Source: Candidatus Vallotiella hemipterorum
GTDB lineage: Bacteria > Pseudomonadota > Gammaproteobacteria > Burkholderiales > Burkholderiaceae
Reading direction: 5' to 3'
DNA length: 64,000 nt
Assembly: GCF_910593725.1 (NCBI RefSeq)
Contig: NZ_OU343031.1
Location: 372,001 to 436,000, forward strand
The position numbers and the translations under genes were made by a program. A model generated the notes under the pieces. That model had not been told where the DNA came from and made no database searches. It worked only from the letters and a program-made list of their open reading frames with translations. This document shows, in pieces, positions 1,019 through 6,690 of this stretch; the first letter of the stretch is position 1; every line of letters starts with the position of its first letter.

Positions 1019-1909
1019 TTAACGATAGCCTATGCTGGGAGCATCATTAGAGAGCGTTTGCGCTTCAGTCGGTTTTAGTGTTACCGCGAGCACCTTATTT
1101 GTAACTTTAGATGGTCCAATTAGCCTCATACCATGCATTCGCTTAATTGCAGTGATGATGTATATAGCTCCGAAAATTGGCCACCAGCGATCGCCGACCG
1201 CTTCTATAAATGCATATTGAGAGAGCCATTTTTTAGTATTTAATGCCGGACGGTAGCAGCCGAAGCAGCCCTGGTCTAGTTCAAAGCAGAGTAACTTGAT
1301 CCAATCTTTTATTCTTGTAAAAGCAATAAAATCGTTTACTGCTGGTATGAATGCACAACCGCTGCAGCGGCTAATCCACTGTCGTACTCCCCAAAGGCTC
1401 AGAGAATTGAAACCGGCAATCACGAGCCGGCCTTCTGGTACCAGAACCCGTTCGGCTTCACGTAGTAGCCGATGCGGATCATGTGTAAATTCAAGTGTGT
1501 GAGGCAAAATTAATAGGTCTACGCTCCGTGATTTGAATGGTAAATCTAGAAAATCGCACCAAAGTGTTTCGCGTTGCGTTAGCATGTTGCAGTTGCTAAC
1601 ATTGATAGTTCTATGAGTGTTTTGGCCTAACGCTAGGCCGCGGCATGGCATGCGATTTTCCCGCAACGTTGGTAAGCGATATGGCGCACTCGCGGCGCTA
1701 GCCGTATCTAACGCTAGGCCGCGGCATGGCATGCGATTTTCCCGCAACGCATCGAGCCTTGGCAAGCCTAACTGAAGTGCATAATAGCCAAACATATCGG
1801 AGACTAAGCGATCAAGTTGGCTCTGTTCCCAGGCGAGAATGTATTGCCCCGGTGCTGATTCGGCCCAGGCCGGCCAGTCTATAATTGATTGGTTCAACAT
1901 TGTTTCCAT
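1019..1909 (-). CDS. Class I SAM-dependent methyltransferase (methyltransferase type 11), substrate unknown
   Basis: The product of 296 aa has the conserved second half of a class I methyltransferase domain ([19 protein letters not shown], then [20 protein letters not shown]). This is the uncharacterised methyltransferase that sits between gloB and rnhA in Burkholderiaceae; its substrate is not known. The N-terminal part contains an in-frame internal duplication: the segment [13 protein letters not shown] occurs twice, 27 residues apart, from a 42-bp direct repeat at 1627-1668 and 1708-1749. The usual GxGxG cofactor motif is not obvious. The start ATG at 1907-1909 lies only 12 bp from the divergent gloB start, so regulatory sequences must overlap coding DNA. 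Function after the duplication is uncertain, but the frame is open throughout. Confidence 0.82.
1627..1749 (-). repeat. 42-bp direct repeat with 81-bp period inside the methyltransferase gene
   Basis: The two copies, 1627-1668 and 1708-1749, are identical (both begin ctaacgctaggccgcggc on the plus strand). The 81-bp period is a multiple of three, so 27 residues were added without a frame change. The 39 bp between the copies encode [13 protein letters not shown] or part of it. It looks like a simple in-frame segmental duplication. Confidence 0.9.
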
Positions 1910-2994: not shown

Positions 2995-5298
2995 ATGCGA
3001 TTAGTATTCGGCGCGCTGTTGGTATTGCTACTCGCTGCATGTTCAAGCAGTGGTCAGAATATGGTGGGAACCTTTCGGTCATTCGAAGGTAACTCGACCC
3101 AGAAGCATACTCAGATATCTGCTTCCCAGAATACTATTGGCGTTAATCACGGCAGCGCAGAAACCTTGCAGGGCAACGATGATTTATGGAGACGGATTCG
3201 TGCCGGTTTTCAGATCCCGAATTTAAAAAGTCATCTAGTCGATATGCAGACCAATTGGTATGCAAAACATCCCGAATACGTTCGGCGCATGACCGAACGC
3301 TCAAAAAAGTACTTATATCACATTGTTGAGGAGATTGAGCAGCGGCATATGCCCATGGAACTAGCATTGTTACCGTTCGTCGAGTCGGCGTTTAACCCGC
3401 ACGCACTATCTGTGGCGAAAGCCGCTGGCATGTGGCAGTTTGTGCCAGGTACAGGTCGAACTTTTAAACTTAAGCAAAACTTGTTTCAGGATGAACGACG
3501 TAACGTCGTTGCGTCTACTAATGCAGCGCTGGATTATTTGTCAAAGCTATATAGTACGTTCGGTAACTGGTATCTAGCGCTGGCTGCATATAACTGGGGC
3601 GAAGGCAGTGTAAAACGCGCAATTGCGCGTAACTTAGCAAGAGGGCTAAAAACCGACTATCAAAGCTTGCCTATGCCCTCCGAGACGCGAAACTATGTGC
3701 CAAAGCTTCAGGCGGTAAAAAACATTGTGATGGACGCTCGGAAATATAAATTAACGTTGCCGGATATTCCAAATCACCCATACTTTGTTATGGTGACCAC
3801 AGCGCGTGACCTTGACATTAAAGTAGCATCTAAGCTTGCAGTGCTTTCGCAAGAAGAGTTTTACTCGCTAAACCCGGGCTTTAAACAACCAGTAATTCTC
3901 CGGGCATCTCAGCCTCAGATCTTGCTTCCGTTTGAGAACGCGAATCTGTTCGAGCGCAACCTCAAAGACTTTGATGGAAATCTCTCATCTTGGACGACGT
4001 ATAAAGTGACCGAACGCGCAACGCCAGCGGTGCTAGCCAAAAAAATTGGCGTTGACTCAAGTATGCTGATGGCAGTCAATAAAATTCCTGCCGGTATGCG
4101 GCTAAAGGCCGGCTCTACACTGCTAGTGCCTAAAGATGATGGCGATGATGAAGATATCAGCGCTGACGTCGCGGAAAGTGCTGTGCTCACGATAGAACCA
4201 GATGTGCTTGATACTCGAAAGATGTTGATTCGTATTCGGCGCAGGCAGTCAATCGCGGCTGTGGCACTGCGTTATGGTGTAACGGTCGCGCAAATTAAGG
4301 CGTGGAACCATACGAGGCGAGATACTGTGACGGCAGGTCAGAGACTAATGTTACACGTCCCAGTCCAGCGTCCAGCCGCTAAAAAGGTTTTAGTGTTGCA
4401 TACAGGCAAGGTGCATCAAGCAGGCAAGGTGCATCAAGCAGGCAAGGTGCATCAAGCAGGCAAGGTGCATCAAGCAGGCAAGGTGCATCAAGCAGGCAAG
4501 GTGCATCAAGCAGGCAAGGTGCATCAAGCAGGCAAGGTGCATCAAGCAGGCAAGGTGCATCAAGCAGGCAAGGTGCATCAAGCAGGCAAGGTGCATCAAG
4601 CAGGCAAGGTGCATCAAGCAGGCAAGGTGCATCAAGCAGGCAAGGTGCATCAAGCAGGCAAGGTGCATCAAGCAGGCAAGGTGCATCAAGCAGGCAAGGT
4701 GCATCAAGCAGGCAAGGTGCATCAAGCAGGCAAGGTGCATCAAGCAGGCAAGGTGCATCAAGCAGGCAAGGTGCATCAAGCAGGCAAGGTGCATCAAGCA
4801 GGCAAGGTGCATCAAGCAGGCAAGGTGCATCAAGCAGGCAAGGTGCATCAAGCAGGCAAGGTGCATCAAGCAGGCAAGGTGCATCAAGCAGGCAAGGTGC
4901 ATCAAGCAGGCAAGGTGCATCAAGCAGGCAAGGTGCATCAAGCAGGCAAGGTGCATCAAGCAGGCAAGGTGCATCAAGCAGGCAAGGTGCATCAAGCAGG
5001 CAAGGTGCATCAAGCAGGCAAGGTGCATCAAGCAGGCAAGGTGCATCAAGCAGGCAAGGTGCATCAAGCAGGCAAGGTGCATCAAGCAGGCAAGGTGCAT
5101 CAAGCAGGCAAGGTGCATCAAGCAGGCAAGGTGCATCAAGCAGGCAAGGTGCATCAAGCAGGCAAGGTGCATCAAGCAGGCAAGGTGCATCAAGCAGGCA
5201 AGGTGCATCAAGCAGGCAAGGTGCATCAAGCAGGCAAGGTGCATCAAGCAGGCAAGGTGCATCAAGCAGGCAAGGTGCATCAAGCAAATTTGAGGTGA
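2995..5298 (+). CDS. mltD: Membrane-bound lytic murein transglycosylase D with a giant KVHQAG repeat tail
   Basis: Periplasmic lipoprotein that cleaves peptidoglycan glycan strands. The N-terminus is a lipoprotein signal with lipobox LLAAC (Cys16). A transglycosylase SLT domain follows (about residues 95-260), with the catalytic Glu130 in LLPFVESAFNP and the AAGMWQFVPGTG and ALAAYNWGEG motifs. Two LysM-like peptidoglycan-binding repeats are at about 335-380 and 408-455. The protein then runs into 49 tandem KVHQAG hexapeptides (residues 471-764) and ends four residues later. The tail adds 294 aa with one Lys and one His per unit, so it is strongly basic. Its role is unknown; it could bind cell wall or simply be a tolerated satellite. 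The enzyme part looks intact. The gene follows gloB, its usual neighbour. Confidence 0.93.
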   Translation: MRLVFGALLVLLLAACSSSGQNMVGTFRSFEGNSTQKHTQISASQNTIGVNHGSAETLQGNDDLWRRIRAGFQIPNLKSHLVDMQTNWYAKHPEYVRRMTERSKKYLYHIVEEIEQRHMPMELALLPFVESAFNPHALSVAKAAGMWQFVPGTGRTFKLKQNLFQDERRNVVASTNAALDYLSKLYSTFGNWYLALAAYNWGEGSVKRAIARNLARGLKTDYQSLPMPSETRNYVPKLQAVKNIVMDARKYKLTLPDIPNHPYFVMVTTARDLDIKVASKLAVLSQEEFYSLNPGFKQPVILRASQPQILLPFENANLFERNLKDFDGNLSSWTTYKVTERATPAVLAKKIGVDSSMLMAVNKIPAGMRLKAGSTLLVPKDDGDDEDISADVAESAVLTIEPDVLDTRKMLIRIRRRQSIAAVALRYGVTVAQIKAWNHTRRDTVTAGQRLMLHVPVQRPAAKKVLVLHTGKVHQAGKVHQAGKVHQAGKVHQAGKVHQAGKVHQAGKVHQAGKVHQAGKVHQAGKVHQAGKVHQAGKVHQAGKVHQAGKVHQAGKVHQAGKVHQAGKVHQAGKVHQAGKVHQAGKVHQAGKVHQAGKVHQAGKVHQAGKVHQAGKVHQAGKVHQAGKVHQAGKVHQAGKVHQAGKVHQAGKVHQAGKVHQAGKVHQAGKVHQAGKVHQAGKVHQAGKVHQAGKVHQAGKVHQAGKVHQAGKVHQAGKVHQAGKVHQAGKVHQAGKVHQAGKVHQAGKVHQAGKVHQAGKVHQANLR
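4403..5284 (+). repeat. Minisatellite: 49 perfect copies of an 18-bp unit inside mltD
   Basis: The unit caggcaaggtgcatcaag is repeated 49 times head to tail (882 bp) with no substitution seen between copies. Because 18 is a multiple of three, any change in copy number keeps the mltD frame. The unit is 56% GC, richer than the surroundings. Perfect identity implies recent expansion or continuing homogenisation. Both strands stay open through the tract, which creates long false minus-strand ORFs. Confidence 0.98.
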
Positions 5299-5532
5299 GC
5301 GCTATTTTGCGCTATACTCTTAAAGTTTAAGTTAATTAACCAATACCCTATCGCCTACCTTCTAAAAATTGGCAGTCTGCCGCAAGACCGATGCTTTTTA
5401 GCTATTGCTAGCAGCAAGGATCGCTTTTATACACCATAAGTTGTACAAAAGTTAATCAAATCTTGAGCGAATCATGCAGCTCGGGTACAGACAACAGGTC
5501 GGCGGCAGGGTATCTCTAGAAGGAGCTTTTCC

Positions 5533-6690
5533 GTGTTGCCGTCTTTTTCTCCCGCTCTGCTCGCGCTTGCCGATGGCACTATTTTACGCGGCTACTCGAT
5601 CGGTGCCATCGGCAACACGGTTGGTGAGGTAGTATTCAATACTGCGATCACTGGCTACCAAGAAATTCTCACTGATCCGAGCTATGCTCGCCAAATTATC
5701 ACGATGACGTATCCTCATATTGGTAATGTTGGTGTGAATGATGAGGATATGGAGTCGGATCGCATCTACGCGGCTGGCTTGGTAATTCGAGACCTGCCGG
5801 TTCTAGAATCAAATTTCCGCTCTCAACGGACCTTGTCCGACTATCTATCAAGTGAAGGTATAATTGCGATTGCTGGTCTAGACACGCGCCAATTAACACG
5901 TATCCTGCGCGAACGCGGTACGCAGAACGGATGCATCTTTGTTGGTACTGATGAACAACGGGCGGTCGAATTCGCACGCTCGTTTAAGGGTTTAGCTGGG
6001 ATAGATCTCGCAAGAGTTGTATCAACGAGCACTCACTATAAGTGGACTGAAACCGAATGGCGTCTAGGAATAGGTTATCGATCACAACAAACTACTCGAT
6101 GTCGAGTGGTTGTATTCGACTACGGTATCAAGCGAAACATTCTACGAATACTAGCGGAGCGGGGCTGCCATATTACCGTTCTACCCGCGCAATCAAGCGC
6201 TGCTGACGCGCTAGCACTTAATCCGGATGGTGTATTTCTATCTAACGGACCCGGCGATCCGCAGGCGTGTGATTATGCGGTTACTGCGGCACGTGAATTA
6301 ATCAAGCGCGGCATGCCGATGTTCGGTATCTGCTTAGGTCATCAAATTATGGCACTAGCTATTGGTGCGAAAACGTTGAAGATGAAAACTGGCCATCATG
6401 GCGCTAATCACCCCGTCAAGGACCTAGACAATGGTAAAGTTGTAATCACCTCGCAGAACCATGGCTTCGCAGTCGATATATCTACACTGCCGGCTGATGC
6501 AAAAGTCACGCACGTCTCGCTATTCGATGGCACCCTGCAAGGGTTTGCATTGCAAGATAAGCCCGCGTTTTGTTTTCAGGGGCATCCTGAATCGTCGCCG
6601 GGTCCACATGATATTAGCTACCTGTTTGACAAATTCGTTAACCTGATCGAGTTGAATAAAGCTCATCGTAGCTGTTCTGCAAGCACTTAG
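5533..6690 (+). CDS. carA: Carbamoyl-phosphate synthase small (glutaminase) subunit
   Basis: Releases ammonia from glutamine and channels it to CarB for carbamoyl phosphate synthesis, which feeds pyrimidine and arginine pathways. The product has 385 aa. The N-terminal small-subunit domain includes [20 protein letters not shown]; the C-terminal class I glutamine amidotransferase domain has the nucleophile Cys267 in FGICLGHQ and the partners His351 and Glu353 in [12 protein letters not shown]. The start is GTG at 5533, supported by AGGAG at 5521-5525 with 7-nt spacing. carB follows after 98 bp on the same strand, probably one operon. Confidence 0.97.

Follow-up and report, generated by a model that had tools for sequence, protein, structure and literature searches.

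A hotspot for in-frame minisatellites of differing sequence at the C-terminus of the lytic transglycosylase MltD in Vallotia symbionts

The gene for an MltD-type lytic transglycosylase of Candidatus Vallotia tarda ends in a tract of repeated DNA that codes for 294 of the 767 residues of the enzyme (~38%). The locus raises two questions: how such an array came to stand at this particular gene end, and whether the encoded tail is of any use to the enzyme. The genome under study, that of an adelgid symbiont, has two contigs, of which the first accounts for 1,123,864 of the 1,196,295 bases. For Candidatus Vallotia tarda, the symbiont of Adelges laricis/tardus, a plasmid of 72,431 bp has been reported (PMC8692619). 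The array was analysed within a stretch of 64,000 bp, referred to as the window (Table 1).

The array at the end of V. tarda mltD

Table 1. Positions of the features discussed (window coordinates, except for the last row)
Feature	Position	Strand	Basis
ORF holding a 42-bp duplication (presumably methyltransferase-like)	1019-1909	-	ORF
mltD-type lytic transglycosylase gene, 767 aa	2995-5298	+	ORF; Pfam SLT and LysM; core dN/dS
SLT catalytic domain, residues 115-215	3337-3639	+	PF01464, E 1.5e-26
LysM domain, residues 413-451	4231-4347	+	PF01476, E 2.5e-11
Native tail remnant, 14 residues ahead of the first GKVHQA	4363-4404	+	Tail comparison, eight genus members
49 identical 18-bp units (GKVHQA x49)	4403-5284	+	TRF; 49/49 identical
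Promoter-like TTGAGG-17-TATACT upstream of carA (presumed)	5290-5318	+	Consensus scan, 1 found vs 0.3 expected
Downstream gene, presumably carA-like	5533-6690	+	ORF
GKTAER x10.4 array	L116:14456-14643 (G005:C1, about 652,456-652,643)		GST-domain gene

The SLT domain typical of MltD-type enzymes was detected with 92.7 bits (Pfam cut-off 21.3), and the C-terminal LysM domain with 43.8 bits (cut-off 20.9) in one stretch. The N-terminus, up to LAAC, is taken by us to be signal-peptide-like with a lipobox-like end. TRF reported an array at 4403-5286 with a period of 18, 49.1 copies, 100% matches and 0 indels. Direct checking found the unit sequence CAGGCAAGGTGCATCAAG in all 49 units, and the ORF reads the array as GKVHQA x49 followed by NLR and the stop codon. 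A first-pass annotation, made from the letters of the window, had described 49 identical in-frame units ending mltD. These three lines of evidence confirmed the description, and the tract is in frame throughout, with no stop or frame change. The annotation had also placed the array after several LysM domains; LysM does precede the array, but one domain, not several, scored above the Pfam cut-off.

When the genome of V. tarda was searched with the 18-bp unit allowing up to 2 mismatches, there were 48 matches in the phase used, all inside the array and none outside it; a reversed control pattern gave 0. A plasmid search gave 0 matches. Elsewhere in the window, TRF detected no array exceeding 2.2 copies at a score of at least 50. 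The window also contains a perfect 42-bp direct duplication (1627-1668 and 1708-1749, with 81 bp between) repeating a 13-letter protein stretch. The Plasmodium histidine-rich protein family PF05403 (HRPII/III) matched residues 469-637 of MltD with a score of 51.2 (cut-off 45.8). This was judged to be a low-complexity match and not homology, because it falls on a bacterial 18-bp repeat whose relatives occur only in Vallotia. Judging by titles and abstract openings, no published description of the V. tarda mltD array was found.

Arrays of differing sequence at the same gene end in sister genomes

The search for mltD covered 41 genomes and found the gene in 36, V. tarda included. The genus members comprise, besides V. 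tarda, Vallotia lariciata (G004), the Vallotia of Adelges kitamiensis (G002), a fourth Vallotia (G005) that is probably V. cooleyia by elimination, Mycetohabitans endofungorum (G006), Mycetohabitans sp. B8 (G001), and two further genomes of Mycetohabitans type (G003 and G007). Among 30 mltD loci (L009-L038), TRF arrays with a score of at least 200 were found in 4/4 Vallotia and in 0/26 others, where the best array was an imperfect 33-bp repeat of 2.5 copies. The V. lariciata array consists of TGQVHQ and then TGRVHQ units, 12.4 copies in all, a number that may be understated in this short-read assembly. The A. kitamiensis symbiont has KAARVS x6.2; the array of G005 is a mixture rich in His, built around a 27-bp core unit. 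In G005 the array was added after a full-length native tail, whereas in the other three Vallotia it stands in for part of that tail. All four arrays lie at the extreme C-terminus, with 0-4 residues beyond them, and the tails are 83 to 311 residues long. The V. tarda array is the longest of the four and perfectly homogeneous. It is a coding minisatellite, consisting of head-to-tail in-frame units within an ORF and differing in copy number from the related units of V. lariciata. The length polymorphism between symbiont lineages anticipated by the first-pass annotation was thus seen between symbiont species, in both unit and length; with one assembly per species, this is the scope of the comparison.

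To judge how unusual this clustering is, 20-kb stretches were sampled, 20 per chromosome, from the four Vallotia and one Mycetohabitans-type chromosome, mltD being left out, and their arrays were counted. Arrays were regarded as comparable if they had at least 4.5 copies, a period of at least 9 and at least 90% identity. The four Vallotia (1.6 Mb) yielded 0, 0, 0 and 1 such arrays, the Mycetohabitans-type chromosome (400 kb) 2. At the sampled rate, the chance of an array in a given 315-bp tail is 2e-4 per genome (95% upper limit 1.1e-3). Since the locus had been chosen for the V. tarda array, only the other Vallotia arrays count in this test; even one further independent array birth at mltD is unlikely by chance, and two are far more so. 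The C-terminus of MltD in Vallotia is a hotspot for coding minisatellites of differing sequence.

The single array in the Vallotia sample consists of perfect 18-bp units inside a GST-domain gene of G005, which we take to be sspA-like. It apparently grew from a single GKTAE present in two Mycetohabitans-type relatives, and the seven remaining genus members have no array of this type in that gene. Separately, the Mycetohabitans-type genome G003 has an in-frame 18-bp ARHSDL repeat of 7.6 copies (L144:15532-15667), close to the basic C-terminal end of a frame of 489 residues; this frame has no Pfam match and is presumably PhaM-like.

Of its 18 positions, the V. tarda unit shares 13 with one V. lariciata sub-unit and 12 with the other. 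In shuffles, 13 or more matches at any rotation occurred in 605 of 200,000 cases, and for in-frame rotations the p values were 0.0007 and 0.0056. These two arrays therefore probably have a common origin, followed by separate homogenisation. The A. kitamiensis unit does not appear clearly related to the others (in-frame p 0.04 and 0.12 against the V. lariciata sub-units, 0.38 against V. tarda), and no relation to other tails was found for the 27-bp unit of G005. Judged by these comparisons, the four Vallotia carry three apparently unrelated kinds of mltD unit, and at least two, probably three, array births are needed; alternatively, one ancestral array was replaced by others. Core trees united V. 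tarda, V. lariciata and the A. kitamiensis symbiont with support 100 in three data sets. The order within the trio varied: V. tarda grouped with V. lariciata (87) when all sites were used, and with the A. kitamiensis symbiont (56 and 68) in the two other data sets. Derivation of the V. tarda unit from a Mycetohabitans-type tail was not established (p 0.006 for one of four tails, 0.086 to 0.326 for the rest).

The first-pass annotation had read the perfect identity of the units as recent expansion or homogenisation, and the comparison with V. lariciata upheld this: there are 0 differences among the 49 units, as against a dS of 0.63 in the mltD core of the two species and units differing at 5 or 6 of 18 positions. 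In V. lariciata the two sub-units sit in separate blocks, the pattern expected of homogenisation in progress, which counts in favour of the explanation preferred below.

The right flank of the V. tarda array has a history of its own. The promoter-like site begins 3 bases past the TRF end of the array; its first hexamer codes for the last Leu-Arg of MltD, and the mltD stop follows directly after this hexamer. The same layout is found 231, 203 and 277 bp past the array in V. lariciata, the A. kitamiensis symbiont and G005, respectively. By pattern it is present in six of the eight genus members; in G001 the first hexamer carries a base change, and in G003 the layout was not detected within the stretch examined. 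The layout is 203-277 bp away in the sisters but adjoins the array in V. tarda, where a deletion thus took out the spacer and the old stop and fused the mltD array to the promoter-like site ahead of carA (window 5287-5318). Common descent of the right flank, suggested by ANLR in V. tarda and DTLR in V. lariciata, was ruled out, because the final codons of V. tarda mltD consist of promoter DNA, whose counterpart in V. lariciata stands 231 bp past the array.

Tail composition and the competing explanations

The sequence of the MltD tail is not conserved in the family and order; it is of low complexity and positively charged throughout. The tail behind the LysM region was net positive (K+R over D+E) in 111/111 loci, with a median length of 87 residues and a median charge of +17.6 per 100 residues, although in a few distant loci the counted tail takes in further LysM-like sequence. 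These loci represent 108 distinct genomes (G015, G017 and G019 occur twice) and include three Vallotia. Together with V. tarda, which is not among the 111, they derive from 101 of the 115 matching genomes of a family search of 120 and, outside the family but within the order, from 8 further genomes. The background was taken from 618 mechanically called ORFs of at least 250 aa, not all of them genes, in the sampled Vallotia stretches: their final 87 residues averaged +0.87 (sd 3.87), and 0/618 reached +15 or more. The Vallotia tails have +17.0, +10.4, +21.7 and +25.1 per 100, those of Mycetohabitans type +22.9 to +24.5. The basic character noted in the first-pass annotation is thus borne out, and it is ancestral.

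The enzyme core, by its dN/dS of 0.06-0.115 between V. tarda and the seven other genus members (dS being saturated in some pairs), is under purifying selection. Counting the SLT domain family alone, each of the four Vallotia has one match, mltD, vs 6 and 4 in two Mycetohabitans-type genomes.

A joint reading of these observations is, in our view, somewhat the best bet: arrays would arise at a hotspot on a polycationic, disordered MltD tail whose composition, not sequence, is kept, and which serves in proximity to the wall. Maintenance of a basic, open and disordered composition at the MltD end would allow in-frame arrays to be tolerated that would harm other genes. Beside a LysM wall-binding domain, such a tail would most likely hold the enzyme electrostatically near anionic envelope polymers, a role that we infer from the conserved charge alone. 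Its exact length would then matter little, and neutral tail length would be compatible with the data. Several points count against this explanation. The TGQVHQ sub-unit of V. lariciata, whose tail charge is the lowest of the four Vallotia, has neither Lys nor Arg, so not every unit preserves the charge. Basic units could have been inherited from the basic ancestral sequence, although the comparison of units with relatives' tails did not establish such descent. Outside Vallotia, the 105 genomes include one with a 9-bp array of 5.4 copies at 95% identity (L251) and 14, L251 included, with weak or imperfect repeats; given these short repeats, the mutation bias to which low-complexity DNA is subject may be sufficient. 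The higher density of arrays in the sampled Mycetohabitans-type chromosome, with mutS and mutL intact, than in Vallotia also counts against it. Finally, AF2 predicted strand throughout the tail alone, not disorder; its five models scored 88.7, 87.4, 52.1, 48.3 and 34.6, two of them confidently. For perfect repeats, those of random sequence included, AF2 has been reported to return confident but unrealistic solenoids (PMC11795689). The tail is presumably disordered.

As to mechanism, either replication slippage or unequal recombination dependent on RecA probably both duplicated and homogenised the units. These are favoured because recA scored over its family cut-off in 6/6 genomes and because contraction of the 15-mer repeats of E. 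coli tolA is reported to be RecA-dependent, falling to 15% without recA (PMC3477136). The family cut-offs for mutS and mutL were exceeded in 0/4 Vallotia vs 2/2 Mycetohabitans-type genomes, and the mutS remnants of Vallotia contain stops; the cut-off for recG was exceeded in one of four Vallotia (the A. kitamiensis symbiont). In V. tarda, recG is present as fragments with inner stops (G000:C1:524730-526538, in the L166 region). Pseudogenes of mutL, mutS, recG and recQ have been reported for Vallotia (PMC8692619). Genes resembling uvrD, without inner stops, were present in 6/6 genomes, none of them over the cut-off, which only 1/14 control genomes passes. Loss of mismatch repair found no support as a sufficient cause, because the sampled Vallotia (1 array in 1.6 Mb) are poorer in arrays than the Mycetohabitans-type chromosome (2 in 400 kb), which keeps mutS and mutL intact, and because tolA contraction was reported to be unchanged without mutS (PMC3477136). 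General growth of arrays was not seen in the 1.6-Mb Vallotia sample. DNA hairpins as a common driver were rejected: of eight mltD array strands (four genomes, both strands), one had z < -2, in the A. kitamiensis symbiont (-2.8), the V. tarda strands giving -1.4 and -0.5. The presumed sspA-like array of G005 folds well (z -8.6 and -6.2).

Neutral turnover is a doubtful but serious competitor. It holds that arrays, harmless at a gene end, drift in and out while the native tail decays, the charge being a leftover. The terminal position of the arrays, the wide range of tail lengths in symbionts prone to drift, and the frequency of imperfect low-complexity repeats in the ancestral tail region (seen at 14 loci outside Vallotia) would all agree with it. 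However, other gene ends are equally free, yet no other C-terminal array was found in the 1.6-Mb sample, and three differing units all leave a strongly basic tail, the chance of drawing units that basic from Vallotia ORFs being 0.003 with thresholds set post hoc. A still less likely proposal starts from erosion of the native basic tail in the reduced genomes: selection would repeatedly recruit newborn minisatellites to rebuild a polycationic end on the one SLT-type lytic transglycosylase that is left. If true, this would be compositional rescue of a protein region through tandem-repeat birth, with three unit kinds in four sister symbionts.

Metal binding by histidine, suggested in the first-pass annotation, found little support as a conserved role. 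The tails contain 50 (V. tarda), 15 (V. lariciata), 35 (G005) and 4 (A. kitamiensis symbiont) His, but the four Mycetohabitans-type tails have 0 and 22 further relatives 0-4 per tail; a His-rich metal tail as the ancestral role was ruled out on these counts. A role of His peculiar to Vallotia may nevertheless exist, V. lariciata and the fourth Vallotia being His-rich as well. A host-specific gain of function would give the repeats, which contain much His in three of the four Vallotia, a metal or a host factor as ligand in the bacteriocyte; this would fit the restriction of arrays to insect symbionts. The proposal is very improbable, as the A. kitamiensis unit is His-free and no motif is common to the units.

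The assembly does contain the V. tarda array. An assembler must assign the number of turns of a short loop from long reads, and the published account describes Illumina 2x100 and Nanopore data assembled by Unicycler in bold mode, with a reported coverage of 323x. Although 882 bp exceeds the 2x100 reads, inflation of the copy number or of the whole array by the assembler is the least credible explanation, given the Nanopore data, the arrays at the mltD end of sister genomes reportedly sequenced by Illumina or PacBio, and the length of two of these (111 and 224 bp), short enough for reads or merged reads. As the tract rests on long reads, there is more doubt about the figure 49 than about whether the array exists.

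Comparison with known systems

Coding repeats are already known; one gene end growing apparently unrelated arrays in sister lineages helps to part selection on composition from selection on sequence. The mltD end is a natural test case for whether a charged disordered tail has a function, and for array birth and homogenisation in clonal symbionts whose repair is eroded. Among adelgid symbiont populations, the length of the tract could be used as a marker.

In obligate insect endosymbionts, protein lengths of orthologues have been reported to vary more than in free-living relatives; unlike the case of mltD, the account available to us describes neither tandem arrays nor a recurrent site (PMC4007534). 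Like mltD, tolA of Escherichia coli contains an in-frame repeat (15-bp units) of variable copy number in a cell-envelope protein, and its rearrangement is described as RecA-dependent and indifferent to mutS; the tolA units, however, differ from one another and the region is internal, whereas the 49 units of mltD are identical and terminal, and the unit varies among sister species (PMC3477136).

The MltD proteins of other Burkholderiales share with Vallotia the SLT and LysM core and the low-complexity positive tail, some with imperfect repeats of 9-33 bp, but have no array of the Vallotia kind; one of 105 distinct genomes has the 9-bp array of 5.4 copies. The p60 protein encoded by iap is a wall hydrolase. 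In Listeria monocytogenes it is a LysM protein with a coding repeat, ACAAAT (Thr-Asn), of variable copy number, as in mltD; its 6-bp unit, reported in 2-7 copies in the strains of PMC3917698, lies between domains and is not basic, whereas the unit of V. tarda mltD has 18 bp, is present in 49 copies and forms the C-terminus of the enzyme.
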